From assembly GCA_017624835.1 (NCBI GenBank), contig JAGAMG010000014.1:1-37453 (forward strand): a stretch of DNA of 37,453 bases, read 5' to 3'. This document shows, piece by piece, positions 12,654 to 35,733 of the stretch (the stretch's first letter is position 1; each line of letters starts with the position of its first letter). Position numbers and translations under genes: made by a program. The notes under the pieces are model-generated. The model was not told the origin of the DNA. It made no database searches and was given only the letters and a program-made list of their open reading frames with translations. The DNA is from Lachnospiraceae bacterium (GTDB lineage Bacteria; Bacillota; Clostridia; Lachnospirales; Lachnospiraceae).

Positions 12654-13373
12654 TTATACTGCGCCTGCGATGATAGAAGTCACAATCACTGCCAAAATAC
12701 CACCGATACTTGAGCCAACCAAATTAACAATTAACTGATATTGCCAATCAACCTTTTCCTTCCCTTTATTCGGAATAGGCAAAATAGTAAACCATACACT
12801 ACTAAATACAGAACGCATTGCATTCATACTAAATCCGGTACTGTTTAAGGACAATGCTATAAGTGCCACTGCTGCAAAACCAACCAATCCGATTACAATA
12901 GGATTGCCATTTGCATATATAATACCCACAAATACCAAAAATAAGAATACAAAGGTTGCAATCATTTCCTGCACAAAGTTAAGCACCATATTCTTTTCAA
13001 CAGGGTAGGCAGAAAAAATACCTCTCTTAGGTAAATCCTTGCTTTCCTTAAAGGAATCCCAAAAGAAAATCATACAAATAAGCACTGCGGCTCCTGCTGC
13101 CAAAAATTCCATCAACAGGTATATCAATGCATCGGTGATTGCCATGCTATTCCATATCACCTGACCCAAAACCACACCGGGATTCAATAGTGCCGGACCA
13201 CCCATGGTTGCTGCAATGCCAAGTCCAAAACCTACAGCCAAAGCCCATGCTACTACTAACTCAATGTAATTTAAGCTTCCTACTAACGTTTTCTTTAAGG
13301 ATACATTGCACATATATGCATATCCGCATAAAAGAAAAATGAATGAGCCACAAAATTCAGATAGATAGTTCAT
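12654..13373 (-). CDS. Aquaporin/glycerol-facilitator-like protein with altered NPA motifs
   Basis: The 239-residue, six-helix protein aligns by eye with the MIP family. The N-terminus NYLSEFCGSFIF resembles glycerol facilitators. The first half-helix motif is LLNPGV (N64-P65-G66) where NPA is usual, and the second is SMNAMRS (N184-A185-M186-R187) where NPAR is usual. The two Asn and the selectivity Arg are kept, but Ala/Pro are replaced. Such changes can alter selectivity. The ATG at 13373 has the strong site GAGGTGAT. The promoter is at 13421-13449, and the EAL-HDOD gene lies 56 bases downstream in the same transcript. The solute is unknown. Confidence 0.78.
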   Translation of the reverse strand: MNYLSEFCGSFIFLLCGYAYMCNVSLKKTLVGSLNYIELVVAWALAVGFGLGIAATMGGPALLNPGVVLGQVIWNSMAITDALIYLLMEFLAAGAAVLICMIFFWDSFKESKDLPKRGIFSAYPVEKNMVLNFVQEMIATFVFLFLVFVGIIYANGNPIVIGLVGFAAVALIALSLNSTGFSMNAMRSVFSSVWFTILPIPNKGKEKVDWQYQLIVNLVGSSIGGILAVIVTSIIAGAV

Positions 13374-13420
13374 AGTCATCACCTCATATATGTATTTTGC
13401 AATTCTTTTGTAACAAGAAT

Positions 13421-13506: not shown

Positions 13507-16182
13507 TTACCAATTACTGTAATAAGAAATACCTATTGTATGCATACCGGAATTACAGGCATTGGAAAAAGAAGATTTCTGCACAATCACATAATCAAAG
13601 GGAACACGTTTCAACACCTCTGCCTTTACCCATTCAATTTGCTTTACCGTACAGCCTACATGGGTAATAAAGACAACATCTTTATTTACCTTTCGCTTAT
13701 TTCTCAAATGCCACCGAATCCCCTGTCTCCATGCAGCTTCCAGATTTCCTGCCAACAAGCCCACCAATACAACCTTCTTTTGTCGCACTCCTGCAAAAGG
13801 ATGGAGATTAAATAATCTGCACACCTTGGCAGTTATAGCTCTGGTTCGTCCGTTTTGGAAGAAGATATCAGCTCCGGGCATGATGAACCTTGTTTGAATA
13901 CGTCCCATCATCTCTTCCAACGCCTGACAAATTGTATCCGTACTCTTTCCTTCCATGGCAAGCTTTGCCGCATACAATACAATCAAACCCTGTCCACAGG
14001 ATATTTGTCCCGAATCAATTACCCTTACATGGTCAAATCCCTTCGCTGCGGTCACGGCAATACCATAGCTTCTTGCCGATTTTGAAGTTACCGATATATG
14101 TATGACTCGTTCTGCCTCTGTCAAAGTTTCCGCAAAAAATTCCTCATACTCCTCCACCGTTACACTGTCAGCGTAGGCAGTACTGCTTTCTGCAGAAATA
14201 TACTGTGTAAGACTGTCAGAGTCAATCTCTCTGGTATCTGCAAATCGTCCGTGTGGAGTCTTAATATACAAATACATCAGCTTAATGTCATATTTCTCCA
14301 ACAATTCCGGTGGAACATCACAAACACAATCTGCAGTAATATAAATCTTCTTGCGCTTCTTTCGGGTAAGCTTCTGTATCTGGTTATCATTTTCCACCTC
14401 CACAGTTCCCGTTTCCAGATATTCTATAATATCCGAAGGCAAAACCTGAAGCAGTTCCATTTCCAAAAGCTTTCCTTCAATGGGCTTCTCCACATAACCG
14501 TCAAAACCCTCCTCCATATACATTTGTCTTGCGCCGGATTGAGCATTACCGGTTAAAACAATGATTGCTGCTTCTCTGCACAGACCATTTTCCTGGGTTC
14601 GGATTTTTTTTAGTGTTTCTGCCCCATCCATATCGGGCATCATATAATCCACCAAAATAGCATGATAAAATTTCTTTCTGGTAAGCTCCAGACATTCTTC
14701 CCCACTCTGCGCAACATTCACCTGCACCTTTGTGGCAGAAAGCAGGCTGCTTGCCACCAAAGAATTCATTTTATTATCATCCACCACCAGAATCCTTGCT
14801 TCCGGTGCTTCAAATAAAGGACGATAAAACTGCTCTTCATTTCTTTCCCTTTTTACAGCATTTACATTACCTACCGGCTCACTATCCACAATTTTTTGTT
14901 TCAGTATCACGGTAAATATTGTACCCTTAGTATAAATACTGTCTACGGTTATCTCACCGCCCATCAAATCAACTAACTGCTTGGTAATGGCAAGTCCCAA
15001 ACCGCTTCCTACAATTTTAGCGTTACGAATCTCATCCGCTCTGTTAAAAGAATCGTAAAGATATTCTATATCCTCCTTTCGTATACCCATTCCGGTATCC
15101 GCAATTTTAATCTTAAGAATCATTTCACCTGTACTGCTCTCTTCCCCTTGAGCAGACATGGTTACAGAGCCCTCCTCCGTATATTTTACTGCGTTATCCA
15201 ATATATTAAGAAGCACCTGCTTAATTCTTTTTTCATCACCGTATAAAACAGACGGAATATTTTTATCAATATCCAGATAGAATTCCAAACTCTTTTTTTC
15301 CATTTGGGCACGCATAAGCTCTGCCAATTCCCCAAACAGGATGTCAGTCCGATACTGCACCGGCACAATCTTCATCTTGTGCATCTCCATCTGAGATAAA
15401 TCCAAAATATCATTTACCTGATTCAACAGCATTTTACTTGCCACTTGAATATCCTTCGCATATTCCCGGATTTCATCCGTAGGATTACTTCTCATAATCA
15501 TTTCATCCAAACCAATAATGGCATTGATAGGAGTTCTGATTTCATGACTCATATGAGCAAAAAAGGTACTCTTATTACCGCTACTCTTTTCAAGCGCCTG
15601 CTTTTGCTCCTCATTTTGCCGATGCTCTTCCTCAAACACACACATATGTTCCTTTAAAATTCCACCGGCTACGATTCCTACTACTATTACGGAAAAAAAG
15701 GAATCCACATGTGCCCGGCCACTATTAAGCATTGGTACAATAAAGTCCGGCTCCCAGAATGTAACAAAATAAGTAACTCCATAGGATACAATGCACAACC
15801 CTAAAAAGAACAACAGCTTTTTACCAGAAAACATAACAAATATGTACAATAGCCCCAATGCCATCCATACCGGAGCTCCGCCTTCCAATCCCCCACTCAA
15901 ACAAAACATGATGGGAAATACAAAAATAATAATCACAATCCCCAAAAGCATTGCTGCCAAATCAATTTTCCGATATTTGAAGGTAGCAATCAGACTGCCT
16001 GCCATAACAGTAAACAGCAATGCCAAAAAAGGAAGTAATACCTTGGTTATCTCCATTACCAGAAAGATTTCTCCCACGCCGATAACAGACGCAACTGCGG
16101 CAATCAGGATAATGATGCGGAACATTCTTTCTCTTAATTCGCAGCCTTCACCGGATATCTGACGGATTATTTTCTTCCACAT
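13507..16182 (-). CDS. Membrane hybrid histidine kinase fused to a C-terminal DegV-like domain
   Basis: The 891-residue chain has, in order, six hydrophobic segments (about 20-180) and a HisKA region with His213 in FFAHMSHEIRTP. An ATPase region follows, with DNAVKYT (N box), DTGMGI, and GSGLGLAIT (G2 box). Next come a receiver domain at about 463-580 with Asp512 in VDYMMPDMDG and Lys566, then a Lys/Arg-rich linker (604-612). The last domain is DegV-like (612-889), with IYITADCVCDVPPELLEKY, VIHISVTS, VIDSGQISCGQGL and NGRT. DegV proteins bind fatty acids. Here the TSQPS and LSGTY contact motifs read TAYADS and KSARSY, so ligand binding may differ. There is no HPt domain. The start ATG overlaps the stop of the previous hybrid kinase by one base (TAATG), so the two are translationally coupled. 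Confidence 0.88.
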   Translation of the reverse strand: MWKKIIRQISGEGCELRERMFRIIILIAAVASVIGVGEIFLVMEITKVLLPFLALLFTVMAGSLIATFKYRKIDLAAMLLGIVIIIFVFPIMFCLSGGLEGGAPVWMALGLLYIFVMFSGKKLLFFLGLCIVSYGVTYFVTFWEPDFIVPMLNSGRAHVDSFFSVIVVGIVAGGILKEHMCVFEEEHRQNEEQKQALEKSSGNKSTFFAHMSHEIRTPINAIIGLDEMIMRSNPTDEIREYAKDIQVASKMLLNQVNDILDLSQMEMHKMKIVPVQYRTDILFGELAELMRAQMEKKSLEFYLDIDKNIPSVLYGDEKRIKQVLLNILDNAVKYTEEGSVTMSAQGEESSTGEMILKIKIADTGMGIRKEDIEYLYDSFNRADEIRNAKIVGSGLGLAITKQLVDLMGGEITVDSIYTKGTIFTVILKQKIVDSEPVGNVNAVKRERNEEQFYRPLFEAPEARILVVDDNKMNSLVASSLLSATKVQVNVAQSGEECLELTRKKFYHAILVDYMMPDMDGAETLKKIRTQENGLCREAAIIVLTGNAQSGARQMYMEEGFDGYVEKPIEGKLLEMELLQVLPSDIIEYLETGTVEVENDNQIQKLTRKKRKKIYITADCVCDVPPELLEKYDIKLMYLYIKTPHGRFADTREIDSDSLTQYISAESSTAYADSVTVEEYEEFFAETLTEAERVIHISVTSKSARSYGIAVTAAKGFDHVRVIDSGQISCGQGLIVLYAAKLAMEGKSTDTICQALEEMMGRIQTRFIMPGADIFFQNGRTRAITAKVCRLFNLHPFAGVRQKKVVLVGLLAGNLEAAWRQGIRWHLRNKRKVNKDVVFITHVGCTVKQIEWVKAEVLKRVPFDYVIVQKSSFSNACNSGMHTIGISYYSNW

Positions 16183-18995
16183 TATGCCCTTACCTCCTTA
16201 CCGTCCAGTCCGTTTTTAAACCGCACCACCATTTCTACAGCGGATACATAGTCCGACATTTCCACTTTTCTTCTAACCGGTGTACATACGGTATTTAACG
16301 CCACTCCGTAATATTGGTAATTTTCCAACTCTGTCAGAATTGCAAGCAAGCATTCTTCATCCAGAGAATACATGGCATCTTCCATTCTTTCAATTATCTG
16401 GTCAAAGTTTTTGCTCTCCAGTACCGGAAGATTACATTCCGTATCACTATTTGTTTCACTTTCCTTTTGAGGACAAATCCATTCCTTCCTGCGTAATCTT
16501 TCAAAAAGGGCTTTGTATTCTTCCAGCAATTCCTGATGATGCTCCCTGATATAATCAATACGTTCTTCTCTGCCTGCCACCTCCAGTTTTCTGGCAATTT
16601 CTGAAATGCCGATAGCACCTATGCTACGCATGGCACTTTTCATACCATGCACTGCAATTACATAGTTTTTCCAATCCTCCTTTAAGAATAACTGCTCCGC
16701 AAGGATTCCCGAGTCATCACAATCCTCGCAATAGCCCTGCAATACTTTAATATATTGCTCCTTACCGTTACAGTACAGGATACCCTTTTGTACATCCAGC
16801 CCTTCTGCCGCAAGCTCCTTTTCAATATTGGGTTCCTTGTCGATATTCTTCTCTTCCTGTATATCTTCAACAATCTGCTCTGGTACCACCGGTTCAATCT
16901 TATTATCAACAGGAGCATTATTCCTTTCCTTAAAAATAATCTTGTCAGCCGGAAGATTACGCTTTAATACACGTTCCAAAACAGATCTCTCAACAGGCTT
17001 CTCCAAAAAATCATCAAAGCCCTCCTTTAGCAGCATTTCACGGGTGCCTGCCACAGCATTTGCAGTCAGGGCGATAATGGGCACCTTCTGATAATAGGTT
17101 CCCACCTTATGCCTGATTCTGTGGAAGGTTTCCACCCCATCCATCTCCGGCATCATATGATCCATAAATACAAAATCATAATCCGCAGAAGTAATCTTTT
17201 CCAATGCCATCTGTCCGCTGGTTGCAATGCTGACTTTTATATTATAATTAGCAAGCAGCCCCTCAATGACACGAATATTCATACGATTATCATCCACCAC
17301 CAACACATGTGCATCTCTTGTTACGAATTTTTCAGTATTGGCAATATACCGACCACCCTGTTCATCATTCAATCCATTTAATACGGATACAATGGTTAAT
17401 ATATAAAAAGGCTTATAGATTTTGAGAAGCTGTGGATTGGTAATCGTTTTTTCCTCCGCCCGTTCCAATACAATAATCACATTTGTTTTCTGTGCCAGCT
17501 TGTCAAAATATGCCGTATTTTCCCGATATTCCACTATACTGATAAAAACATGGGAAAAATGCTCCTTTTCCTGTCTTCTTTGTAACTCCGCTAAATTTCT
17601 GCATATATGGCATTTCCCCTTAAGCTGCTCCACCATATGCAAAATCATACTGGAATATTCGTCACGAATTGCCAGCATATCAAACTGTTCCATATCAATA
17701 TAAGTTGCCACATTTATATTATCTTTTTGCTGAATGGATGCAATAGGAGCCTCATCCAATACCTTCTGGGGCACTACAAACTTTACAATACTTCCCTTGC
17801 CAAGCTTGCTTCTGACCGTAATGGCACCTCCCATTTTCTTTACCAGTGCCTGGGAAATCGCAAGTCCCAGACCCACTCCGCCTTCCATGCGGTTACTGCT
17901 GGTATCCACCTGACTAAATCCGGCAAAAAGCTTTTCTACACTTTCCTCTGCCATACCGATTCCGGTATCCTTAACCGTAATCACCAGATTGATTCCATAG
18001 GATTCCCTGCGAAATCCCACCACAATGGTTACACAACCATCCTCTGTAAATTTGATGGCATTATCCACCAGATTCATAATTACCCTTCGAAGCTTTTTTT
18101 CGTCTCCTAATAGTGCACAGGGTATATTGGCATCACAATCCACAATCAACTCAATTTTTTTCTCATTTTTACGTGCTAATGTCATATTTATGACATCATT
18201 AATGGTGGAGGTGATATTATACGCTTCCTCCTCCAATTCTATTTTACCGGACTGTAACTCCGAAAAATCCAAGATATCACTTACAACTGACATCAAATTT
18301 CTTCCGGCAATCTGAATATTCAGTATATTCTCCTTGGTTTTTACAGGCAATTCCTCTCTAAGCACCAACTCACTCATACCACAGATGGTGTTAATAGGCG
18401 TTCTGATTTCATGGCTTACATTTGCCAAAAATTCATCCTTACTGTTTTCTACTATTTTTAATTCTTCTATGGCGTCTAAAAGCTGACGGCTGCCTTCGCT
18501 ATTCCTCTTTGTCCAGATATACACCACATATTCCAATAACAGTACATTTCCAAGCTGGGCAAGTGCCGTCATAGCTTCACTCATGGTATTATAGGGAATA
18601 CTACCGATAATAACGCCGTGATAGAAATAGATAAACACACCGGCAATCACAGAATAATAAGTAATTTCCGGAATTCCATACAATCCCATAAACACAGCGA
18701 ATGCCAAAAACACAGGAATTACCGCCGAAACATCCTTCAGATGTATGGCATAAAGTACCATACTTCCCTGCATCATTATCGCTGCAAATTTTGCTCTGAA
18801 CTCATAATTTTTCCATTTACTGATAGATACTATCCAGCAGGCCGCCAGCATTACAACCAAAAAAAGACCTACCCAGCTGTCCCACTCTTCCTTCACAGCG
18901 ATTACAATTACATTCAAATTGTAAATACTATAGATAAGCAATAAAAATCTTTCTATTTTCTTTTGATTGTTTCCTTCATAAGTTAAATGCTCCAT
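16182..18995 (-). CDS. Membrane hybrid histidine kinase with receiver and HPt domains
   Basis: The 937-residue sensor kinase has about six hydrophobic segments (15-162). The HisKA domain has His195 in ANVSHEIRTP, and the ATPase domain has DNAIKFT, DTGIGM and GGVGLGLAIS. At about 435-545 lies a receiver-like segment with no phospho-acceptor Asp. A true receiver follows at 562-680, with Asp612 in MDHMMPEMDG and Lys666. An acidic linker leads to an HPt domain with His783 in AVHGMKSAMRSIGA, then about 100 further residues. This permits an internal His-Asp-His phosphorelay. GGGAGG precedes the ATG. A terminator lies just upstream and no promoter is visible, so expression probably depends on read-through from the che operon. 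Confidence 0.9.
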   Translation of the reverse strand: MEHLTYEGNNQKKIERFLLLIYSIYNLNVIVIAVKEEWDSWVGLFLVVMLAACWIVSISKWKNYEFRAKFAAIMMQGSMVLYAIHLKDVSAVIPVFLAFAVFMGLYGIPEITYYSVIAGVFIYFYHGVIIGSIPYNTMSEAMTALAQLGNVLLLEYVVYIWTKRNSEGSRQLLDAIEELKIVENSKDEFLANVSHEIRTPINTICGMSELVLREELPVKTKENILNIQIAGRNLMSVVSDILDFSELQSGKIELEEEAYNITSTINDVINMTLARKNEKKIELIVDCDANIPCALLGDEKKLRRVIMNLVDNAIKFTEDGCVTIVVGFRRESYGINLVITVKDTGIGMAEESVEKLFAGFSQVDTSSNRMEGGVGLGLAISQALVKKMGGAITVRSKLGKGSIVKFVVPQKVLDEAPIASIQQKDNINVATYIDMEQFDMLAIRDEYSSMILHMVEQLKGKCHICRNLAELQRRQEKEHFSHVFISIVEYRENTAYFDKLAQKTNVIIVLERAEEKTITNPQLLKIYKPFYILTIVSVLNGLNDEQGGRYIANTEKFVTRDAHVLVVDDNRMNIRVIEGLLANYNIKVSIATSGQMALEKITSADYDFVFMDHMMPEMDGVETFHRIRHKVGTYYQKVPIIALTANAVAGTREMLLKEGFDDFLEKPVERSVLERVLKRNLPADKIIFKERNNAPVDNKIEPVVPEQIVEDIQEEKNIDKEPNIEKELAAEGLDVQKGILYCNGKEQYIKVLQGYCEDCDDSGILAEQLFLKEDWKNYVIAVHGMKSAMRSIGAIGISEIARKLEVAGREERIDYIREHHQELLEEYKALFERLRRKEWICPQKESETNSDTECNLPVLESKNFDQIIERMEDAMYSLDEECLLAILTELENYQYYGVALNTVCTPVRRKVEMSDYVSAVEMVVRFKNGLDGKEVRA

Positions 18996-19078: not shown

Positions 19079-20428
19079 TTAGTATTTACCAAAGCTTCCC
19101 TTCAAAGAAATAATCTGCTCATTTCTGTCTGAATGGTTATCATAATGACGGGCTACCGGTTCTCCCATTCCCATCTGAGAATGTCCGTTCAATTTATAAA
19201 CAGAAAGCATTTCCTTCACACGATTAACCTGATTGGACAATTCTACGCTGGCTGCTGCGCACTCCTGACTGGTTGCAGAATTCGTCTGTACCACCTGTGA
19301 CACTTGTTCAATGGCCTGATCAATCTGAGCAATAGCAGTTGCCTGATAATTAGAGGATTCTGCAATTTCATTGATAATTGTTTCACTCTTCTGTACTACA
19401 TCGGTAATTTTTTCCAACGCCAATGCTGTCCCATTTGCAATCTTGGAACCGGCTTCTACCTTTTCTATGGAATCTTCAATCATTTCTGCCGTTTCCGCTG
19501 CTGCCTGCGCACTCTTTGCTGCCAGATTTCTTACTTCCTCCGCTACTACTGCAAAGCCTTTTCCTGCCTCGCCCGCTCTTGCAGCCTCTACAGCTGCGTT
19601 TAATGCAAGGATATTGGTCTGGAATGCAATATCATCAATTACCTTGATAATCTTGGAAATGCTTTCGGATGCCTTATTGATATCCTGCATTGCCACTACC
19701 ATTTCCTGCATCTCCGCATTGCCCTTCTTTACATCTTCAATTGCCTGTCCCATTAAATCTGTTGCCACATTTGCCTGTTCTGCATTCTGCTTGGTCTTTT
19801 CTGCCACATCATCAATGGAAGCGGTAATCTCTTCAATGGCACTTGCCTGCTCTGTAGAGCCCTGTGCCAACGCTTCACTGGCACTTGCTACCTGAGACGC
19901 ACTTGTAGAAACCTGACTTGCAGAATCTATTACACTACTTATTGCATGATGATTTTGATATACCAACTTTTTCATTGCATGTCCCATCACATCATCATCG
20001 GACTTAGGACGAACTTCTACAGTCAAATTTCCGGTTGACACTTCCTGAGCAATCTGCGCCTGATACTGAATATTGTCAATTACCTTCTGCATATCATCCA
20101 GCATCATACCAAATTCATCATTGCCGGTCTTTTCGATTTTAATGTCAGTTTTTCCCTCTGCCAATGCCTCTGAAACCTTGGTAACCTCTGCCAATGCCTT
20201 TTTGATTTTTCTGACCATAGTCACAGCAACGCCGGTGGTTACAACCATCATCAAAATAAATTCCACTGCTGTAAAGGTACCATAGCTACTCAAATAATGG
20301 GTCTGATCCTCCACTGTAATAATCTGAGCCGCAGTGGTATAACCAAAGTATAATGATAAAATCAGGATTGCTTCCATTATCAAAAATCCAATTGTCAATT
20401 GTGTCGATATTTTCATATTTTTTCCCAT
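19079..20428 (-). CDS. Methyl-accepting chemotaxis protein with minimal external loop
   Basis: The 449-residue receptor has membrane helix 1 at about 10-34 and helix 2 at 53-74. Only about 18 residues lie between them, so there is no room for an extracellular ligand domain. A HAMP region (75-127) follows, then the methyl-accepting signalling domain with the conserved tip [14 protein letters not shown]. Gln- and Glu-rich helices offer methylation sites. No NWETF-like CheR tether is at the C-terminus. AAGGAG lies 9 bases before the ATG at 20428, which is 4 bases after the cheW stop. It probably senses membrane or cytoplasmic state, or works with the membrane hybrid kinases nearby (inference). 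Confidence 0.9.
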
Positions 20429-20432
20429 GATG

Positions 20433-20930
20433 TTATTCTCCTTCTTCCATAGTATCTTTACTTGCCAATTCCAACATTGCCAAATCATCATCCTTCAGCA
20501 AAAGCTCCGGATCCAAAAGCAATTTCACACCATCGCCAACCTTGCCAACACCGTAAACATATTTATTCTGGCATTTTTCGTCATTCCCAACAGTGGGGGT
20601 AGAAAGAATATTTTCATTCTTTATCTCCACTACTTCGGCAATCTTTTCTACAATCAGTCCTACCACAGTATCCTTTACATTAATGACAATAATGCAGGTT
20701 CTGTCATTATATTCAATGGGTTCCTGTCTAAAACGAATCCTTACATCAATTACGGGAATAATTTTTCCTCTCAGGTTAATCAATCCCTTAATGTAATCCT
20801 CACTCTCGGGAATCTGCGTAATCTCCTGAAAAACAATGATTTCGTTCACATATTGTATTTTCAATCCAAAATACTCATTTCCCGATTTGAAGGTTACATA
20901 TTTATCCTGCTGTGTATCCTGCACGCTCAT
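20433..20930 (-). CDS. cheW: Chemotaxis coupling protein CheW
   Basis: The 165-residue CheW-fold adaptor links chemoreceptors to CheA in the polar array. Seen: [16 protein letters not shown] at the N-terminus, the [31 protein letters not shown] core, and [15 protein letters not shown]. Length is slightly above the usual 150-160. GGAAGAGG precedes the ATG. It sits 21 bases after cheA and 4 bases before the receptor gene, making cheA-cheW-mcp a tight unit. Confidence 0.95.
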
Positions 20931-20951: not shown

Positions 20952-23123
20952 TTATTCAATTAATCCCACTGCATCCAAAATCAAAGCAATACTTCCGTCT
21001 CCTAATTGGGTACAACCTGATAAACCTTTTACCTTCTTGATATAATCAGGAATGGGTTTTACTACAATTTCCTGTTTGCCAATCAACCGATCCACCAAAA
21101 GACAGATTGTCTGATCCTCTACCTCAACAAGCACCAGCATTCCATCCTCTGCATCCGCTTGATAACCATCAATCTGATAACGTTCACCAATGCGTAATAC
21201 AGGATAGCCTTCTCCACGAATCATTACAAATTCTTCTCCGCTGGGGTTCTTAATGAGTCTGTTTTCCCGCATTCCCACAAACTCTTTTACCATACCTGTT
21301 TCAATGACAAAGGAGGACTTGCCCACTTCCATGACAATACCATCAATAATCGCAAGAGTCAGAGGAATTTTTAAGTTCATAACACTTCCCTGTCCGGGAG
21401 TACTTTCGATTTCCAAACTTCCACCGATGGATTGAAGATTGGAGACTACCACATCCATACCGACGCCTCGACCGGAATATTCCGTTACCTTCTCATTGGT
21501 AGAGAATCCGGGTAGGGTAATAAACTGATAGACTTCCTTATCCGCATATTCGCTGTCAGGCTTCATGTAGTCAAGTAAGCCCTGTTTTCTTGCCTTTGCA
21601 ATAATCTTTTCACGGTTCAGTCCCCTTCCGTTGTCCTTTACGCTAATCCAAACCTTGCCGGATTCCGTCTTAGCAGAAAGAGTTACCTTGCCCTTTTCCG
21701 TCTTACCTGCCTTCTCACGCTCCTCAATGGTTTCTATACCATGATCCACTGCATTTCTTACCAAATGCATCAAAGGGTCAGAGATATGCTCGATAATATT
21801 CTTATCCACCTCTGTATGCTCGCCTACCATCTCAAACTCAATATCCTTGCCCAGCTTTCTGGATACATCAAAGACAATACGATTCATCTTCTGGAAGGTA
21901 TTGGTCAGGGGTACCATTCGCATACTCATAATTACATTCTGCAAGTCTGTGGATATCTTAGTCATTTGACCTGCTGCCTTATTAAAGTTATCAAGTCGAA
22001 GTCCCGGTATCTTCAAATCCGGATTCTGAAGTACTACAGATTCAGCAATAACAAGCTCACCAATTAAATCCATGAGCATGTCCATCTTATGTACATCCAC
22101 ACTGATAAAAGCTGCTTTTTCCTGCTTTTTAGGCTTATCCTTGGCAAGCTTCTTTCCTTTACCGGGCTCCTTGGATTCAATAACGAAATCACCGGGAGCA
22201 ATTTTCTGTTTTTCCTGTGCCGCAGGCTGAGAAGCCGGTGCAATATACATTTCCCCGGGCTGAATTCCCTCTGCCTTAGCCTGAATTTCTTCCACCGAAG
22301 ATTCCAAATCGATTCGGATTTCCGTACCAAAGCTGTCAAAGCCCTGCTGGAATTCTTTGGCAGTACATTCATAAATGTCTACCTTCTTTAGCTCGTAGCC
22401 CTCTTTAATAAGTCCCTTTAATTCTTCTTCACTGCACTGTGCCTGCAACAAAATTTTGAAACCATTCTCCAAAATTTCATCCGCACTTCCCTCATCGGAA
22501 ATAATATCCTCGGGATAATGCAGTAAATCCTCTGCAATTTCTTTTAAGGAATATACAATCTTGTACGCATGCACATTGGCAAGCATAACATCCGGATGAA
22601 AGGTCAGATATATCTTATAAAAACGACTGGCACTGGTAGCCATAGGGGCAATATAAAACTGCTGCGGCTCCTCATGTACATTTTCCTTGATATCCTTTGT
22701 TTTTTCACCTTCACCGTTTTTAATTGCATTTAAAAATTTATCAATGGCCGCCACCTTTTCTGTAGCATCTCCGTCCGCAGACTCACCATTTTGAATTTTT
22801 TCCATTTCTGCTGTAATAAAATCAGCCACCTCTAAAACATGTTCTACCAGTTCCAGGTGGGGAACATTATCCGGCTTGGACTCTCTCAGATAAAAGAACA
22901 CATCCTCCAGCTTGTGAGATATCTTCGTAATCTCATCAAACATCATAACACCGGAGGAACCCTTAATGGTATGCATGGTTCGGAATATCTCATTGATACT
23001 ATCCTCATCAAAGCATTCTTCATCCTTTTGTTCCAACACAATCTCTTGAAGCCGTTCCAGCAGTTGTCCGTTCTCAAACAGGTACATGTCCAGCATGCCC
23101 TGTATACTAAAGTCTTCTGCCAT
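20952..23123 (-). CDS. cheA: Chemotaxis histidine kinase CheA
   Basis: The 723-residue kinase reads the receptor array and phosphorylates CheY and CheB. Domains in order: P1/HPt (about 1-125) with His51 in RTMHTIKGSSGVM; a P2-like CheY/CheB-binding domain (about 155-255, starting FYIAPMATSASRFYKIYLTF); and a charged linker with PGKGKKLAKDKPKK. Next are the P3 dimer helices (VDVHKMDMLMDLIGELVIAES) and the P4 ATPase with HLVRNAVDHGIE, DNGRGL and GRGVGMDVV. The C-terminal P5 CheW-like domain ends in LGDGSIALILD. All key motifs are present. AAAGGAG precedes the ATG. It sits third from the end of the che operon. Confidence 0.96.
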   Translation of the reverse strand: MAEDFSIQGMLDMYLFENGQLLERLQEIVLEQKDEECFDEDSINEIFRTMHTIKGSSGVMMFDEITKISHKLEDVFFYLRESKPDNVPHLELVEHVLEVADFITAEMEKIQNGESADGDATEKVAAIDKFLNAIKNGEGEKTKDIKENVHEEPQQFYIAPMATSASRFYKIYLTFHPDVMLANVHAYKIVYSLKEIAEDLLHYPEDIISDEGSADEILENGFKILLQAQCSEEELKGLIKEGYELKKVDIYECTAKEFQQGFDSFGTEIRIDLESSVEEIQAKAEGIQPGEMYIAPASQPAAQEKQKIAPGDFVIESKEPGKGKKLAKDKPKKQEKAAFISVDVHKMDMLMDLIGELVIAESVVLQNPDLKIPGLRLDNFNKAAGQMTKISTDLQNVIMSMRMVPLTNTFQKMNRIVFDVSRKLGKDIEFEMVGEHTEVDKNIIEHISDPLMHLVRNAVDHGIETIEEREKAGKTEKGKVTLSAKTESGKVWISVKDNGRGLNREKIIAKARKQGLLDYMKPDSEYADKEVYQFITLPGFSTNEKVTEYSGRGVGMDVVVSNLQSIGGSLEIESTPGQGSVMNLKIPLTLAIIDGIVMEVGKSSFVIETGMVKEFVGMRENRLIKNPSGEEFVMIRGEGYPVLRIGERYQIDGYQADAEDGMLVLVEVEDQTICLLVDRLIGKQEIVVKPIPDYIKKVKGLSGCTQLGDGSIALILDAVGLIE

Positions 23124-23147: not shown

Positions 23148-23540
23148 CTATATCAGCCCCAGCTTTTTTAATGCCTGTTCAAACCTTTCCTGGTCAATGG
23201 GCTTTCCTGAATAAATGGTACATCCCAACTCAAATGCCATTTTTACATTTTTCTCTTCATTTAATGCGGTGGTCATAATAATCTTTGCCGCCTTTTCCTT
23301 AGGAATATTCCGTTCCTTTTCCAGATTACGGATTCCCATAAGTGCCTGATAGCCATCCATAACCGGCATCATAATATCCAGACACACCAAATCATAAGGC
23401 TCCTCATCCTCCAATGCCATCATGAACGCATCCACCGCTTCCATTCCATCAACGGTTACATCGCACTCTCCATATTTTGACAAGAAACTTGTCATTGATT
23501 TTCTTGTTACAAAATCGTCTTCTGCTAGTAAAATCTTCAT
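23148..23540 (-). CDS. cheY: CheY-type single-domain response regulator
   Basis: The 130-residue receiver has acidic pocket ED at 7-8, Asp55 in LVCLDIMMPVMDG, a Thr in the TTALNEE region and Lys in GKPID. It has no output domain, and it lies directly between cheB and cheA, so it is the likely CheA target. The wording of the N-terminus (MKILLAEDDFVTRKSM) is closer to stand-alone regulators of hybrid systems than to flagellar CheY of the B. subtilis type. It may act on a partner other than the flagellar switch. Confidence 0.88.
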   Translation of the reverse strand: MKILLAEDDFVTRKSMTSFLSKYGECDVTVDGMEAVDAFMMALEDEEPYDLVCLDIMMPVMDGYQALMGIRNLEKERNIPKEKAAKIIMTTALNEEKNVKMAFELGCTIYSGKPIDQERFEQALKKLGLI

Positions 23541-23560: not shown

Positions 23561-24589
23561 TTACATTTTGCTGAGTAACGAATACGTCCTTTTAGCAATA
23601 TCCGGCAATTTTTCCTGATATTCTACTGCTCCCAGTTCATATGCCACCTTGGGCATTCCATAGACAACGCATGTGGATTCGTCCTGGCCAATTGTCCTTG
23701 CTCCTGCCTGTTTCATTGCAAGAAGACCTTTTGCACCATCGCCTCCCATTCCCGTCAGGATAATTCCTACCGCTCTGTCTCCTGCCACCTCTGCCACGGA
23801 CTGAAATAACACATCCACTGAGGGACAATGCCCGTTTACCCTGGGACCTCTCTTTATTACTACCTGATAGGCTCCATTCACCTTTACCAGTTGCATATGG
23901 GCGTCCCCTCCCGGTGCAATTAAAACCTGCCCGGGAACCACCAAATCTCCTGTTTTTGCCTCCTTTACGGCAACCTGACACCGCTCATTCAGCCTTTTGG
24001 CATACATATCCGTAAATCCCGGCGGCATGTGCTGTACAATAACTACACCGGGAATATCCGAACCGAATTCCTTAATTACCGAAGCAATTGCTTCCGTTCC
24101 TCCTGTGGAGGCTCCAATTGCAACTACCATATCATTTCTGTTCGCCGCCAGCGGTTGATCCGGTGTTGCCATGGGCGTTTTCTTCCAACTGCCTACCTTG
24201 GCAACGGATGCTACTTTAATCTTAACCTGTAATTCCTTTTTGATGAACTCTTCTATCTGTGCTCTGGTAGCTCCTGAGGGCTTTGCCACAAAGTCCACCG
24301 CTCCGGCATTTAAGGCATCAAATACCCTTTCACTTAAGGAACTGATTACAACTACCGGAAGCGGATATTGAGGCATCAGCTTTCTCAAAAACTCTATCCC
24401 GCTCATCCGGGGCAGCTCTATATCCAAGGTCATAACATCCGGCTTATACTCTACAATTGCATCCCTTGCCTCAAAAGGATCCCTGGCTGTTGCCACCACT
24501 TTTATGGCTGGATCCTTATTCAGATTCTGTACCAGAAGTTCTCGAAATACCAGAGAATCTTCTACCACCAATACCCTTATCTGACGCAT
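23561..24589 (-). CDS. cheB: Receptor methylesterase/deamidase CheB
   Basis: The 342-residue enzyme removes methyl groups from, and deamidates, chemoreceptors for adaptation. The N-terminal receiver has Asp56 in LDIELPRMSG and Lys103 (AKPSG). A linker with TPMATPDQPL leads to the catalytic domain with Ser161 in IGASTGG, His187 in QHMPPGFT and Asp284 in TGMGGDGA. Length is normal. It lies between cheR and cheY, 17 bases after cheR. Confidence 0.95.
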   Translation of the reverse strand: MRQIRVLVVEDSLVFRELLVQNLNKDPAIKVVATARDPFEARDAIVEYKPDVMTLDIELPRMSGIEFLRKLMPQYPLPVVVISSLSERVFDALNAGAVDFVAKPSGATRAQIEEFIKKELQVKIKVASVAKVGSWKKTPMATPDQPLAANRNDMVVAIGASTGGTEAIASVIKEFGSDIPGVVIVQHMPPGFTDMYAKRLNERCQVAVKEAKTGDLVVPGQVLIAPGGDAHMQLVKVNGAYQVVIKRGPRVNGHCPSVDVLFQSVAEVAGDRAVGIILTGMGGDGAKGLLAMKQAGARTIGQDESTCVVYGMPKVAYELGAVEYQEKLPDIAKRTYSLLSKM

Positions 24590-24606: not shown

Positions 24607-25410
24607 TTATTTTCGGAAAATAGATGGCTGTATCAATTGGAAGGGAGTCTGACTTCTGTCAATGGTTTCCGTTCTTCCGATAAAAAGATATCCTCCCGGT
24701 TCCATCACATCATATACTTTCTGAATTAATTGATTCTTTGTTTCTTTATCAAAATAAATCATTACATTTCGTAAAAATACAATATGCATTTTTCGCTTAA
24801 ACGGAAATACATCCATTAAATTAAACTGTCTGAAAATAATTTCATCCTTGATTTCCCGGGTAACCTCATAGGTCTGCCCGCCGTCCATGGAACGTAAAAA
24901 CCTACGTTTCCAATGCTCCGGCAGGGAAGCAATCTGTTCTCTGTCATATCTGCCGGTCATGGCCTGCTTTAATACCTCTGTGGAAATATCCGTTGCTAAC
25001 ACCTTGGTATCCCACAAATCATGCTCCAATCCAAAAAAGTCCTTTAATAGCATTGCCAGCATATAGGGCTCCTGTCCGCTGGAAGCTGCTCCGCACCAAA
25101 TACACAAATCCTTTGTGCTCTCTTCACTTCGCCTAAGCCCCGGCAAAACCTCCTGCCTCAGAAAATCAAAATGTTCAAACTCCCTCATAAAAAAAGTATG
25201 ATTGGTGGTCAGGATATTTACCAGCTCCCGTTCTCTTTGTCCGGTAAAATCCACTTCCACTGCATTCATAAAATCATGATAATCCACAAATCCGTTGGTA
25301 TGTATGTAATTGGTAAGTCTTCCCTCTATAATTTCCTTCTTACCATCCAAATCAATACCATACCGACTTTTCATAAAACAATAAATTCTGAGAAATTCCT
25401 CGTCCTTCAT
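24607..25410 (-). CDS. cheR: Chemoreceptor methyltransferase CheR
   Basis: The 267-residue S-adenosylmethionine-dependent enzyme methylates receptor glutamates. The N-terminal helical domain (about 1-75) is followed by the methyltransferase domain with CIWCGAASSGQEPYMLAM (SAM loop), LATDIS and the NLMDVFPF and FLRNVMIYF segments. ATG 25410 has AAGGA 7 bases upstream. A TTG 6 bases earlier is in frame but too close to that site. The local receptor has no pentapeptide tether, which fits a CheR that binds the receptor body directly. Confidence 0.94.
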   Translation of the reverse strand: MKDEEFLRIYCFMKSRYGIDLDGKKEIIEGRLTNYIHTNGFVDYHDFMNAVEVDFTGQRERELVNILTTNHTFFMREFEHFDFLRQEVLPGLRRSEESTKDLCIWCGAASSGQEPYMLAMLLKDFFGLEHDLWDTKVLATDISTEVLKQAMTGRYDREQIASLPEHWKRRFLRSMDGGQTYEVTREIKDEIIFRQFNLMDVFPFKRKMHIVFLRNVMIYFDKETKNQLIQKVYDVMEPGGYLFIGRTETIDRSQTPFQLIQPSIFRK

Positions 25411-25446
25411 TTTCAAGTCCTTCCCATCTCAGTTTTTACAATTCTT

Positions 25447-26520
25447 CTAATGAAGCTGACGCACTATCTTTTTTAATATCCAGAAGATATCCGGATTAAA
25501 TTTATTTTGGGCATCCTCTTCCATAATTTCAAAAGCACGCTCCTGACTAAAAGCATCTCTATAGGTACGTTTCTCTGTTAACGCACAATAGGCACTTACT
25601 ACTGACACAATCTGTGCCGCAAGGGGAATCTCCTCTCCTGACTTTCCTTCAGGATAACCGCTGCCATCCCAATTCTCATGGTGATAATTGGCAATATCTA
25701 TGGCCATACGAATAAAGCTGTTGTCATTTCCTATTTCTCCGATATCTCTTAAAATTCTGGCACCAATGGTTGTATGAGTACGCATAATTGCATTTTCTCC
25801 CGGTGTTAGTGCTCCCTGCTTTTGTAAAATATTGGTAGGAATTGCCATATTTCCCAAATCACATAGAGGCGCTGCCAATTCAATGGTATCAATATAGCTG
25901 TCCGATATCAAATGTCCATACTGTGCCGACAATTGCATTGCCTCTGTCAAAATCCGGCAATTATGACTCAGACGTTCCATATAGTCCTCATCATAGCAGG
26001 CATTCTCTCTAGCCACACGAATCAAAGCATACAACACGCTTCTACGCTCCATCTCAATCTGCCTTAATTGTTCATTAATGGATGCCTGCAGCTGCCTGTT
26101 CATTTCGGAAATATTCCTGTTTGCCTCCGACAGCTTTAAGTGCATTCCTACTCGCACTTTGACTACTTCGGGGATAAAGGGCTTGGTTATGTAATCTTCG
26201 CCCCCCAGATTAAATCCCTTAACGATATCTGCCGGATCATCAAATGCTGATATAAAAATAATTGGGATTTCCCTAGTAGAGGCATCCGCCTTTATTTGCT
26301 GACACACCTCATAACCATCCATTTCAGGCATTGCAATGTCCAAAATAATCAACTGTGGCTTAATTCGCTGTACCATTCTGAGTGCCTGCATGCCATTTTC
26401 TGTTAATATGGGCTGATATCCCATATCCACTATAATATCTCTTAAAACAAATCGATTAGCCTCAACATCATCCACTATCAGTATCCGGGGAATTTCTTTA
26501 CTTGTTTTGACTTCTGCCAT
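25447..26520 (-). CDS. Response regulator with a degenerate HD-GYP domain
   Basis: The 357-residue protein has a receiver (about 11-130) with Asp61 in ILDIAMPEMDG and Lys113. A coiled-coil linker (130-160) and an HD-GYP-like domain (165-357) follow. In the second part HHENWDGSGYP (280-290) is intact, but the HDIGK signature reads CDLGN (Cys220-Asp221). The later DxxDALT-type motif reads SAYCALT. Loss of metal ligands suggests little or no c-di-GMP hydrolysis, and perhaps binding only. GGAGG precedes the ATG at 26520, which lies 17 bases after the histidine kinase stop. Phosphorylation by that kinase is the simplest model. Confidence 0.86.
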   Translation of the reverse strand: MAEVKTSKEIPRILIVDDVEANRFVLRDIIVDMGYQPILTENGMQALRMVQRIKPQLIILDIAMPEMDGYEVCQQIKADASTREIPIIFISAFDDPADIVKGFNLGGEDYITKPFIPEVVKVRVGMHLKLSEANRNISEMNRQLQASINEQLRQIEMERRSVLYALIRVARENACYDEDYMERLSHNCRILTEAMQLSAQYGHLISDSYIDTIELAAPLCDLGNMAIPTNILQKQGALTPGENAIMRTHTTIGARILRDIGEIGNDNSFIRMAIDIANYHHENWDGSGYPEGKSGEEIPLAAQIVSVVSAYCALTEKRTYRDAFSQERAFEIMEEDAQNKFNPDIFWILKKIVRQLH

Positions 26521-26537
26521 ATCGTTCCTCCGTGACA

Positions 26538-27977
26538 TCAAATCATCTTTTGTAATACCTCAAAGGCAACCGCTGCCTTTTCATAATTTCCTCTCTGCAC
26601 CGCCATTTTTAGCCTCAGCGCTGCGCTTTTTACTTCTCTGGGAGCATCCTCCGTTAATTGCTTTACAGACTCCGCAAACATCTCTGCTTTTTCCCAATTT
26701 TCCATTTCCACACTGAGAATCAGCTTGGACATTTTCTTTTCCAATTCCGCTTTATTCTCCGTCGTACCATATTTCCAAATATTTTCACTGACACTATTCT
26801 CTGTCAGACTTTGCAGCTTATGCAGCAATTCCTTTTCATCCCTGCGGACTGTGTACTCCTTATCTGCCTCACAATCCTCCGGAAGCTCCACCCAGATATG
26901 AAAGGAAAAAGTAGTTCCCTTTCCTTCATTGCTCTCCACATGGATATTACCTCCCATCAGTTCCACCAGCTGCTTACATATATTTAATCCCAAGCCCGTT
27001 CCGCCGTATTTTCTGGAAATAGAAGCATCTACCTGCGAAAAGCTTTTAAACAGCTTGTCCTGATCCTGCTTGGCAATACCGATTCCCGAATCAATTATCA
27101 TAAAGAACAATTCGACCATCTTACCTGCCTGAGCCGTTTTTACTACCTCCACATGAATCCCACCCACGGAGGTAAATTTGTAGGCGTTGGAGATAAGATT
27201 ATTTAGAATCTGCACAATTCTAAGTTCATCGCTTATAACATTTTCCGGTATTTCCGGGGAAACATTTACCGAAAAATCCAACCCTTTTTCAATAATTCTA
27301 TTGCTGTGATTTCCCTTCACATAATCTATCATATTACGGAAATGAAAGACCCTTGGCTCCAAAGAAAACTTTCCCGCTTCCAGCTTGGAGAAATCCAGAA
27401 TATTATTAATAATGGCATTCATATCCCGGCAACCACGTTCTACCAGATGAAGAAGCTTCAGTTTTTCTTCATCCGTTTCAATTCCCAGAAGCTCACGGGT
27501 ATTACCTAAAATTCCATTTACAGGGGTGCGAAGCTCGTGAGTAACATTTGCTACGAACTCTGTCTTAACCTTCTGTGCCTGCTCCGCTTCCTGCCCCGCC
27601 TGGCTTGCCTTTTTTTCAAAAAAGCTCTCCGCAGAAGCATCATAGGCCGTACAAATATAACGCCTAGGCTCCTTTCCATGCCCATCCTCATAAACAAGGA
27701 TTCTGGCTTTCACCGGAAAACAGGTCTTATTCTTACGATAAGCCATGAGACTTTGGAAAGGCTCTTCTGTATTTACATTTAATATCATTTCATTATTTTC
27801 TATTTCAAATGTTCCCGGAAAAACATCCGTTATCAGACTTCTGCATAGCTCATCATTATACTCCAGCAGTTTTCCTGCCATCTGATTTGCATATTGAATT
27901 TTTCCGTTTTCATCAAAAATAAGTATCATTTCCAATGCATTGTCTATAGAAAATTGAAATAAGCCGTTCTGCTCCAT
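26538..27977 (-). CDS. Soluble PAS-domain histidine kinase
   Basis: The 479-residue cytoplasmic kinase has no membrane segment. A PAS domain (about 8-118, MILIFDENGKIQYANQMAG) is followed by HisKA with His147 in FVANVTHELRTPVNG. The ATPase domain carries NNLISNAYKFT, DSGIGI and GGTGLGLNI. A C-terminal alpha-helical tail (about 385-479, rich in Glu, Lys and Ala) is not a receiver or HPt and looks like helical repeats. GGAGGAAAG precedes the ATG. It is the first gene of the che operon, behind the promoter at 28008-28036, and its product probably phosphorylates the regulator encoded next. Confidence 0.9.
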   Translation of the reverse strand: MEQNGLFQFSIDNALEMILIFDENGKIQYANQMAGKLLEYNDELCRSLITDVFPGTFEIENNEMILNVNTEEPFQSLMAYRKNKTCFPVKARILVYEDGHGKEPRRYICTAYDASAESFFEKKASQAGQEAEQAQKVKTEFVANVTHELRTPVNGILGNTRELLGIETDEEKLKLLHLVERGCRDMNAIINNILDFSKLEAGKFSLEPRVFHFRNMIDYVKGNHSNRIIEKGLDFSVNVSPEIPENVISDELRIVQILNNLISNAYKFTSVGGIHVEVVKTAQAGKMVELFFMIIDSGIGIAKQDQDKLFKSFSQVDASISRKYGGTGLGLNICKQLVELMGGNIHVESNEGKGTTFSFHIWVELPEDCEADKEYTVRRDEKELLHKLQSLTENSVSENIWKYGTTENKAELEKKMSKLILSVEMENWEKAEMFAESVKQLTEDAPREVKSAALRLKMAVQRGNYEKAAVAFEVLQKMI

Positions 27978-28174: not shown

Positions 28175-28214
28175 AAAAAAGGCCCTCAAACGAGAGGTTT
28201 TTCTCATTTGAGGG
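28175..28214 (-). terminator. purL terminator
   Basis: CCCTCAAACGAGA (28183-28195) and TCTCATTTGAGGG (28202-28214) pair with one mismatch. The minus strand then runs into six T residues (opposite 28175-28180). It insulates the che operon promoter from purL transcription. Confidence 0.9.
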
Positions 28215-33444: not shown

Positions 33445-35733
33445 ATGGCAGGAAATACTTTAGAAAAAGGAAAAGCAATTTACACATATGGGCAGCCCAT
33501 GACCGCTGTTCATCTGATTACCGGCGGTAAAGTAGATGTCCGCTATCCCGGTGGCTCCTATCAGATCGGAAAAGGAGACATTATCGGCATCTGCGAAATC
33601 TGTTCTGAAATCCATTATCTGGAATACACCGCTGCAGAGGATACCGCTATCCTCACCTATCCCCTTGCAAATATGAACGCTTTGGAGGATATCCTCAAAA
33701 AGCATCCTGATGTTGCAAGACTGTTCTTACTTTCTCTTTTTAAGCAATATAGTTTATTACAGGGACGTTATTCCATTTCCGAGTTAAATTATAGCAGCCT
33801 TTACCAGAGTCTTACTGAGGATTATGACAAATATACCGCTCTATGTCAGCGTTACCGCCTTCCTGTCCGTTCCCTGGACAAGCTACAGGATTTGGAAGAA
33901 TACCTCAATGAGGATGCTCCCGATGTATGGTTAAATGCATATTATCAGGGTCTTTCCCATATTTATGCCTCCGAAAATTACAAAAGCTTTGTAATGGAAT
34001 CCGCGGTTTCCATAGGTATGCTCCGAAAGGGCAGTCTGGATTTCCGCAGAACCTACCAAAGTATTGATGACTTATATACCTATCAAAAAGAATTGGCACA
34101 ATTTTACTTTGATGAATCCGGCAATGACCTTTTTGATTTCTACACCGCCCTTTATTATAAGCTGGGACAGGATAATGAGGATGCCGGCGAGCTTCTTACA
34201 GATATTAATCGCATGATTCGTCAGATCAAGGAATCCGGCGCAGTAGAGCCAAAGCTTTTTGCCAAACGTGTACAGGCCTTCCAAAGCAATCTTGCCTCCT
34301 TAAACGAGGCTCCCGCCGTAACACAGGAAGTTACCGAAGTGGATTCTGCTATTGTAACTGCTCTGACAGGCTCCTTAAATACCATTTTAGACTATGCCGG
34401 TCATAGCTTTGAAAAGGCAGATGCTTTCCGCAAACACATTACCGAATACAAGGCATTACCAGACCGTTCCGCTGTAGACGACAAAACCAATGCCCTGCGC
34501 AGACGTCTCACAGACGAATTTAATTCACTTTACTCCATACTGTTTAAGCGCACTCTGGAAATGCCCGAAATCCCCATGCCGGTAAAATTATTTTTATATT
34601 TCGGTTATGTGGATGAAGAATTGGCAGGCATGGGCAATGCTGCCACCCTTTACAATATTGCCAACTCCATTACCGATTACAGCGATTCCGGAGTTTACAC
34701 CTTCTATCATTGGCTGATGGCGATTTTCACAGGTGCCAAGGAACCCAGCCGAAACGAATTTGAACAGGATTATTTTGATTACATTCACAGACTGAAAGCT
34801 TCCAATAATCTTTCCGATCTGGAATATAAGGAAATGGAAAATGATGCCATGGCCAAAATTGACTATGAACTGCAAAACATGTTCCCTTCCGTAAACAAAG
34901 TAACCTTCGGACGTATTACAACCTTCTGTCCGATATTTACCTCAGATAATGTATTGAAGGATTTAAATGAGGCCTATGTAACCGCAACTAAATTAGGAAA
35001 AATCATTCAATTTATTCGCCAGGTTGACTATACCGCTTATTATCGTGAAAGTCTCGATACGGAGCATATGGATGTAATGGGCAAAGAAACCATACATAAA
35101 GAATACCTGCCCGATATTATTCTGACCCCCAATGTAGGTATCCGTGGTGTTATGTGGCAGGAAATCGAAGGTAAGAGACGAAACAGCTCCAGCCGTATGT
35201 GCTTCTCCATCTTCCATCTGGAAGACCTAAAGACCTCTCTGATTCGTCTTACCGGCGAATTCCGTTGGGAAATGTGTAAGCGCATACAGGGTGCCCGTTG
35301 GAATGATGTAAGTGAAAGCTCCCTGACCAGTGAATACTTTGATTATGTACAGTTCTATCGCAAGAACCATGACTTAACTCCGGAAGCCAAGGAAAAGGTA
35401 CGCACCAGCCTACAGCGTGCTAAAAACAGCTTCAAGGAAATGTTTGTTCGTGATTATATTGTGTGGGTATTATTTGAAGGTAACGGCTCTCCCAGATTAA
35501 ATAAGGTTGCAAGAAGGATTCTGTTTATTCACTGTCCTTTCCCCGATAATATCTGTGAGGATTTAACACAAAACCCTCTGTACACAGAATTATTAAACCG
35601 CCGCAAAATTGTCACCGCACAGCGCGTGCATCATTTAAATATGCTGTTACAGAAAATCAGAAATGGTCGCGGTCGGGTACCGGACACCTTGGAAAGCGAA
35701 ATTATTTATGCACAGGGCAAGGTACAAAATTAA
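33445..35733 (+). CDS. Large uncharacterised protein with N-terminal cyclic-nucleotide-binding-like fold
   Basis: I do not recognise this 762-residue protein as a whole. Residues about 5-85 resemble a cNMP-binding beta barrel (GKAIYTYGQPMTAVHLITGGKVDV, then YQIGKGDIIGICEI, then AEDTAIL). The Glu and Arg of the phosphate cassette are not where a true cAMP binder would have them. No DNA-binding helix-turn-helix follows. The rest (about 100-762) is alpha-helical, acidic and aromatic-rich, with no signal peptide or membrane segment. Conserved-looking blocks include ITTFCPIFTSDN, NVGIRGVMWQEIEGKRRNSSSR, GEFRWEMCKRIQGARW and SPRLNKVARRILFIHCPFP. GAGGTGA precedes the ATG. It is monocistronic, ending at the terminator 35777-35830, and divergent from the TetR operon. 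Confidence 0.8.
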   Translation: MAGNTLEKGKAIYTYGQPMTAVHLITGGKVDVRYPGGSYQIGKGDIIGICEICSEIHYLEYTAAEDTAILTYPLANMNALEDILKKHPDVARLFLLSLFKQYSLLQGRYSISELNYSSLYQSLTEDYDKYTALCQRYRLPVRSLDKLQDLEEYLNEDAPDVWLNAYYQGLSHIYASENYKSFVMESAVSIGMLRKGSLDFRRTYQSIDDLYTYQKELAQFYFDESGNDLFDFYTALYYKLGQDNEDAGELLTDINRMIRQIKESGAVEPKLFAKRVQAFQSNLASLNEAPAVTQEVTEVDSAIVTALTGSLNTILDYAGHSFEKADAFRKHITEYKALPDRSAVDDKTNALRRRLTDEFNSLYSILFKRTLEMPEIPMPVKLFLYFGYVDEELAGMGNAATLYNIANSITDYSDSGVYTFYHWLMAIFTGAKEPSRNEFEQDYFDYIHRLKASNNLSDLEYKEMENDAMAKIDYELQNMFPSVNKVTFGRITTFCPIFTSDNVLKDLNEAYVTATKLGKIIQFIRQVDYTAYYRESLDTEHMDVMGKETIHKEYLPDIILTPNVGIRGVMWQEIEGKRRNSSSRMCFSIFHLEDLKTSLIRLTGEFRWEMCKRIQGARWNDVSESSLTSEYFDYVQFYRKNHDLTPEAKEKVRTSLQRAKNSFKEMFVRDYIVWVLFEGNGSPRLNKVARRILFIHCPFPDNICEDLTQNPLYTELLNRRKIVTAQRVHHLNMLLQKIRNGRGRVPDTLESEIIYAQGKVQN

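Follow-up and report, generated by a model that had tools for sequence, protein, structure and literature searches.

FakB and SaeS of Staphylococcus aureus are separate proteins, with no fusion between them. Excerpts of one study (PMC5539427) report that the Fak system of this species and the free fatty acid pool influence the two-component system SaeRS. In FakB1, as laid out in sections of another paper (PMC8892158), Thr62, Ser95, Ser171, and His270 hold the carboxylate of the fatty acid, the kinase reaction requires Arg173, and Arg205 is the key residue for binding of FakA and the membrane. Here, we analyzed a 37,453-nucleotide stretch of DNA from a Lachnospiraceae bacterium (assembly GCA_017624835.1, contig JAGAMG010000014.1), called the window throughout, in which one uninterrupted frame (13507..16182, minus strand) encodes a hybrid histidine kinase of 891 amino acids (aa) with a C-terminal DegV domain. 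We propose, with a probability of about 0.5, that this protein is part of a two-kinase phosphorelay that has recruited a FakB-type DegV as a captive, FakA-independent ligand-sensing domain.

In its catalytic parts, the protein is an ordinary hybrid kinase. A hydropathy scan finds six hydrophobic, putatively transmembrane segments within residues 16-176 (15655..16137; this and the following domains are on the minus strand). They are followed by HisKA with its phospho-acceptor His213 (PF00512, residues 204-266, 15385..15573), HATPase_c (PF02518, residues 315-429, 14896..15240), and a receiver with its phospho-acceptor Asp512 (PF00072, residues 464-573, 14464..14793). The HisKA His, the N and G boxes of the ATPase, and the receiver Asp, Thr, and Lys are all present, and each of ten catalytic sites in the kinase and receiver is conserved in at least 35 of 38 aligned proteins. 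The remainder (residues 612-889, 13516..14349) is a DegV domain by both profile and fold. It scores above the curated cut-offs of PF02645 (121.8 bits versus 27) and TIGR00762 (124.3 versus 99.7), and its model is FakB-like with a predicted local distance difference test (pLDDT) score of 90. Comparison with S. aureus FakB1 (5uto) aligns 277 residues and shows the two-part fold to be complete over its whole length. The complete hybrid kinase and full-length DegV fold that an initial annotation had read from the letters are thus borne out, the latter by the structure modelling suggested there. As a FakB, the domain fails on two of the features examined, the carboxylate network and Arg205. In an AlphaFold2 model of receiver plus DegV, both domains are confident, whereas the linker between them (residues 591-607, 14362..14412, minus strand) has a pLDDT below 50. 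Considering this linker and a predicted template modelling score of 0.64, the model predicts no fixed receiver-DegV contact in the monomer.

Residues at the ligand site and the FakA-docking face set the fused domains apart. We examined 112 distinct fused loci, the window's included, after dropping six duplicates; the unfused locus L064 is not among them. They were compared with 35 standalone DegVs, controls biased towards similarity because they were chosen among high-scoring profile matches, mainly in genome samples of the order and class, with one from a sample of 150 genomes of the same family and four from the window's own genome. In the window, Thr62, Ser95, Ser171, and His270 are replaced by Ala671, Ala703, Asn777, and Asn877, so that the carboxylate network is absent, in line with the altered ligand site that had been noticed initially. 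The Arg173 equivalent (Arg779) is retained, and Arg205 corresponds to Ala811, which is directly followed by a Gly that is invariant in the alignment. The His270 position is Asn in 107/112 fused and 0/35 standalone domains, and His in 3/112 and 34/35, respectively. Lys203 is kept in no fused domain (98/112 have Ile, Val, or Leu) and Arg205 in a single one, as against 35/35 standalone domains for both. Thr62, Ser95, and Arg173, which all 35 standalone DegVs keep, fare better: the Arg173 equivalent is present in 92/112 fused domains, and Ser/Thr at 62, Ser at 95, and Arg at 173 occur together in 82/112, which suggests that most fused members still use the polar end of the ligand. One standalone DegV of the window's genome (L002, contig C1) has Tyr at the His270 position.

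A tree of 80 DegV domains, covering 42 of the 112 fused ones, sets 45 signalling domains (42 fused and three from unfused operons) on a long stem, with 100/100 support, apart from the 35 standalone domains. Viewed from the latter, the unfused L076, L064, and L075 branch before the fused group, which has 85/86 support. Their DegV frames share at most 4, 13, and 17 bases, respectively, with the kinase gene upstream, if the first possible start codon is assumed. In L075, the window's own genome contains the system once more, in unfused form (contig C38, 8504-15621, minus strand), with genes for an Hpt kinase, a receiver-HD-GYP protein with intact motifs, a 708-aa kinase-receiver protein, and the separate DegV gene. 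The simplest history suggested by the tree would be recruitment of DegV beside a kinase, followed by one fusion, with moderate support for the fusion being single.

The second component of the proposed system is a partner kinase. In the window, its gene (16182..18995, minus strand) overlaps that of the DegV kinase by one base and encodes a hydrophobic N terminus, HisKA (His195), ATPase, receiver, and an Hpt-like stretch (His783) with an HxxKS motif, which scores 22.0 bits with the Pfam Hpt model, under the 24.6 cut-off, and is detected by an Hpt model built from our alignment. Loci were annotated with kinase, receiver, DegV, and Hpt models that were all built from our own alignments. In 89 of 100 evaluable fused loci (12 of the 112, with less than 2.6 kb upstream, are left out), the next gene upstream, on the same strand, encodes a hybrid kinase with receiver and Hpt, and the two genes are commonly within a few bases of each other or overlap. 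In five loci, it is the DegV kinase that has a C-terminal Hpt of its own, confirmed by Pfam in L065 and L068, and the direct neighbor kinase has none in 5/5. These own-Hpt forms fall at only two places in the tree (L065, L070, L071, and L072; and L068), so few events underlie the complementarity. Nearly all evaluable loci have one Hpt in the adjacent pair. In L066, the Hpt is encoded separately by the adjacent gene, and in L199 it lies one gene further; the remaining exceptions to an upstream partner, apart from two loci taken up below, are the second copies in L129 and L144, where two DegV kinases stand in tandem behind one Hpt kinase.

Neighboring genes in relatives point to cyclic di-GMP (c-di-GMP). 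They were counted in the best 80 of 518 matches to a consensus-type alignment in a search of genome contigs (L121-L200), so any count that draws on these loci leans to the consensus type and lacks independence. In 52 of 63 evaluable loci, a same-strand gene upstream encodes HD-GYP, a domain of the c-di-GMP phosphodiesterase type, 17 of the 80 being left out for having less than 4.2 kb upstream, and the HD, HHE, and GYP motifs are intact in 52/52 such proteins of more than 300 aa. A receiver precedes HD-GYP in the proteins scanned with Pfam (L132 and L075). Downstream, Pfam identifies a family-3 solute-binding protein in 30/73 loci and a GGDEF protein in 15/67. The solute-binding protein might be an extracellular input of the kinase pair. 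In many loci, among them L132 (8886-11104) and L136 (8919-11193), the gene for this protein and one for receiver-GGDEF come after the pair. Other neighbors encode receiver-GGDEF (L050 and L068), receiver-GGDEF-receiver-HD-GYP (L057), and receiver-EAL-GGDEF (L047) proteins.

The mechanism that we propose would run as follows. Both kinases would phosphorylate their own receivers, and that of the DegV kinase, which has no Hpt of its own, would exchange phosphate with the Hpt of the partner. The latter would relay it to an output receiver, which would be that of HD-GYP in most systems and, in the window, possibly the CheY-like receiver, CheB, or degenerate HD-GYP protein of the same gene run. DegV, on its flexible linker, would bind and hold captive a hydrophobic or acyl-type cytoplasmic ligand, and occupancy would shift the kinase/phosphatase balance or the docking of the two kinases. 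What used to be the FakA-docking face has become mostly aliphatic and may serve as a new interface with kinase or receiver. A fatty acid is one candidate for the ligand of the fused DegV. A wider claim is more tentative still, with the odds somewhat against it: that these proteins form a new family of phosphorelays sensing lipid or acyl compounds in the cytoplasm, in which a captive FakB-type sensor (docking face lost, His replaced by Asn) and a two-kinase, one-Hpt relay would set c-di-GMP ancestrally and chemotaxis in the window's lineage, and which would have moved into rumen spirochetes. Beyond the initial annotation, the analysis adds the partner kinase with the distribution of Hpt between the two kinases, the neighborhood of c-di-GMP and chemotaxis genes, the changes of His to Asn and of Lys/Arg throughout the clade, and the unfused operons.

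Several observations weigh against a captive ligand sensor in a two-kinase relay. Mean pairwise identity is lower in DegV (0.36) than in the receiver (0.51) or HisKA (0.65), yet above that in the membrane part (0.24). In the window's clade, Thr62 is changed to Ala, Ser, or Gly, Ser95 to Gly, Ala, or Arg, and, in five of nine members, Arg173 to Tyr or His, a further erosion of polar residues that fits a lost or very different ligand. Conversely, a FakB-type His270 is kept in L060 and in the second tandem copies of L129 and L144. L073 and L074 have no adjacent partner kinase, and in L065 and L070 an additional kinase with Hpt is encoded one or two genes upstream, so the one-Hpt rule holds for the direct neighbor alone. 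The HD-GYP protein of the window lacks the catalytic HD, and c-di-GMP output may not apply there. Two standalone DegV genes, both represented among the 35 controls, L090 (1498-3422, minus strand) and L097 (1507-3040, plus strand), overlap a kinase-like and a receiver-bearing gene, respectively, and keep FakB-type residues, indicating that neighborhood alone does not make a signalling-type DegV; these are perhaps independent associations of DegV with two-component genes. Finally, the ligand, the phosphotransfer, and the effect on c-di-GMP are steps predicted from sequence.

The strongest rival is that DegV is a ligand-free, pseudo-FakB docking module, which pairs the two kinases or recruits the output. 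In its favor, nearly all fused members have lost His270 and Lys203/Arg205, the face where FakA once docked is mostly aliphatic, the partner kinase is conserved, and the window's clade, for which this reading is most plausible, has additionally lost Thr62 and Ser95. On the whole, it is less probable than a captive sensor. Against it, joint retention of Ser/Thr62, Ser95, and Arg173 in 82/112 would be odd for an unused pocket, and the full-length fold is retained, with a gap fraction of only 0.01 over the 38 aligned proteins. A DegV carried along neutrally since an old fusion, the kinase and receiver doing all the signalling, is improbable. Its faster divergence than that of receiver and kinase is what a passenger would show, but the DegV stretch has at least 281 residues in all 112 loci except L169 and L188, which stop at a contig edge, the position of Asn877 is near-invariant (107/112), and DegV is retained as a separate overlapping gene in the three unfused operons. 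Because loci were found via their DegV domain, kinases that lost it would be missed by this comparison.

Even less probable is a FakB-like activity that is switched by receiver phosphorylation and hands a fatty acid to FakA. The fold, the Arg173 equivalent kept in the window, and the presence of FakA in the window's genome are compatible with such a role. In that genome, a standalone DegV lies ∼2 kb from FakA, so that ordinary fatty-acid uptake and activation would be provided by other genes. The FakA-binding Arg205 and His270 are lost in nearly all fused domains, and two metagenome-assembled genomes labelled Treponema (L195 and L197) encode the fused kinase-DegV protein with no FakA match at E ≤ 0.001 and no other DegV, in searches that gave matches in 6 of 14 control genomes (the completeness of the Treponema genomes is not reported). 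In the L195 genome, the contig of the fused gene also has, at a distance of 50 kb, genes for FlaA, a protein of spirochetes, and a search for FlaA gave no match in any of the 14 control genomes; L195 therefore looks like a genuine horizontal transfer rather than misbinning. Binning of L197 is less sure because its fused gene is on a 3.8-kb contig without FlaA. FakA delivery as the main role was rejected on the loss of Arg205 and on the Treponema genomes. Of the two ways in which the initial annotation had coupled fatty-acid or acyl status to the phosphorelay, DegV acting on the receiver as a cytoplasmic sensor remains the best reading, as we infer it, whereas a receiver that gates lipid handling, if by FakB-type delivery to FakA, is disfavored.

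An assembly error or frameshift joining two genes, which had been named as a possible refutation, has a practically negligible chance, because the fusion recurs in 28 of 150 sampled genomes of the same family and in the 112 loci, the window's counted in both; nothing in the window favors it (the interrupted kinase parts of relatives L146, L155, and L157 are breaks, not joins). The 150-genome count is of DegV inside open frames of at least 700 aa; the sample gave 39 such matches, of which the window's and 37 of the 38 others were used, all except G011:C10, on a contig of 4.5 kb. The suggested search for the same architecture across Clostridia thus found it to be recurrent. All 80 best relatives, out of 518, come from metagenome-assembled genomes, by record label mostly Lachnospiraceae or other Clostridia and two Treponema; labels can mislead, as for L121, which is labelled Bacteroides yet duplicates L049 from the window's family. 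Among the matches listed, an order sample (295 genomes) has the fused form in one genome of another family (G388), and a class sample (391 genomes) in G564, G731, and G490, all of one other family. The fused forms seen in these two samples rank near the top of the matches listed, and the kinase-receiver-DegV order was confirmed for all four genomes. In a phylum sample (398 genomes) at E ≤ 1e-75, only standalone DegVs were found outside the window's family. Confinement of the system to one family was rejected on these four genomes and the two Treponema. Three loci (G329:C1:4779166, G270:C1:2805020, and G545:C71:19377) have DegV in open frames of ∼600 aa and are perhaps other DegV fusions.

The two kinase genes of the window are the last of a run of ten on the minus strand, presumably an operon. 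Its first gene encodes a PAS histidine kinase (26538..27977). It is followed by genes for a receiver-HD-GYP protein (25447..26541), CheR (24607..25416), CheB (23561..24589), a single-domain, CheY-like receiver (23148..23540), CheA (20952..23123), CheW (20433..20930), and a methyl-accepting chemotaxis protein (MCP) with HAMP and MCPsignal domains (19079..20491). CheA, CheW, and MCP precede the kinase pair in 7 of the 37 other fused loci retrieved from the family (L037-L042 and L046). In the tree, these account for all but one of the window's eight closest relatives. FlhA was found in the window's genome, which is therefore probably flagellated. In the receiver-HD-GYP protein, HHE and GYP are intact and CDLGN replaces the HD motif, making c-di-GMP output doubtful here; judging from these motifs, it is possibly a non-catalytic c-di-GMP binder. 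Ahead of the run is a terminator-like hairpin of 13 pairs with a T run (28183..28214, minus strand), which has the longest stem listed in a consensus scan that gave 13 sites against 10.5 expected in shuffles. A promoter scan of the window was close to chance (55 sites versus 43.5 expected). Where the operon stops is less sure because a gene for a MIP/aquaporin-type channel (12654-13382) continues on the same strand 124 bases after the DegV kinase gene; the best NCBIfam match of the channel, below cut-off, is the model for the lactic acid transporter LarD. Elsewhere in the window, an open reading frame of 762 aa (33445-35733, plus strand) has no Pfam match at E 0.001.

Among the titles listed, a literature search, its scope being neither subscription papers nor preprints, found no paper on a kinase-DegV fusion; PMC12688256, in its passages on DegV, concerns a separate DegV gene unrelated to it. 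Because any Pfam scan will show its architecture, the fusion as such is quite likely to be present in databases, and it is the surrounding system that appears undescribed. For many DegV proteins outside Fak pathways, no ligand is known to us, nor is the input of most hybrid kinases in gut bacteria. With a DegV hard-wired to a phosphorelay, close to c-di-GMP and chemotaxis genes, both questions can be addressed at once, and the residue changes lead to specific predictions, i.e. no coupling to FakA and an altered ligand head group. The system suggests an undescribed route by which a cell-internal, possibly lipid, signal would be fed into bacterial decisions on lifestyle and movement. If the ligand is an acyl compound, gut Lachnospiraceae would thereby sense lipids directly in the cytoplasm when choosing between motile and sessile life.

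Compared with known systems, the fused domain resembles the DegV/FakB family (S. aureus FakB1 and Thermus thermophilus 2dt8) in its full two-part fold and in the Arg173 equivalent of the window and of 92/112 domains. Unlike FakB, it sits behind a receiver, has Asn for His270 in 107/112 and the Lys203 and Arg205 of the docking face in 0/112 and 1/112, respectively, lacks Thr62 and Ser95 in the window, and occurs in genomes without a FakA match. The co-activator DhaQ (2iu4 and 2iu6), which is related to the DhaK subunit of dihydroxyacetone kinase, works together with a transcription factor, whereas the fused DegV goes with a histidine kinase. With hybrid kinases of the BarA/ArcB/TorS type, the protein shares the HisKA-HATPase-receiver order and the catalytic residues, but its C-terminal DegV replaces or precedes the Hpt, which is mostly found on the tandem partner kinase instead.

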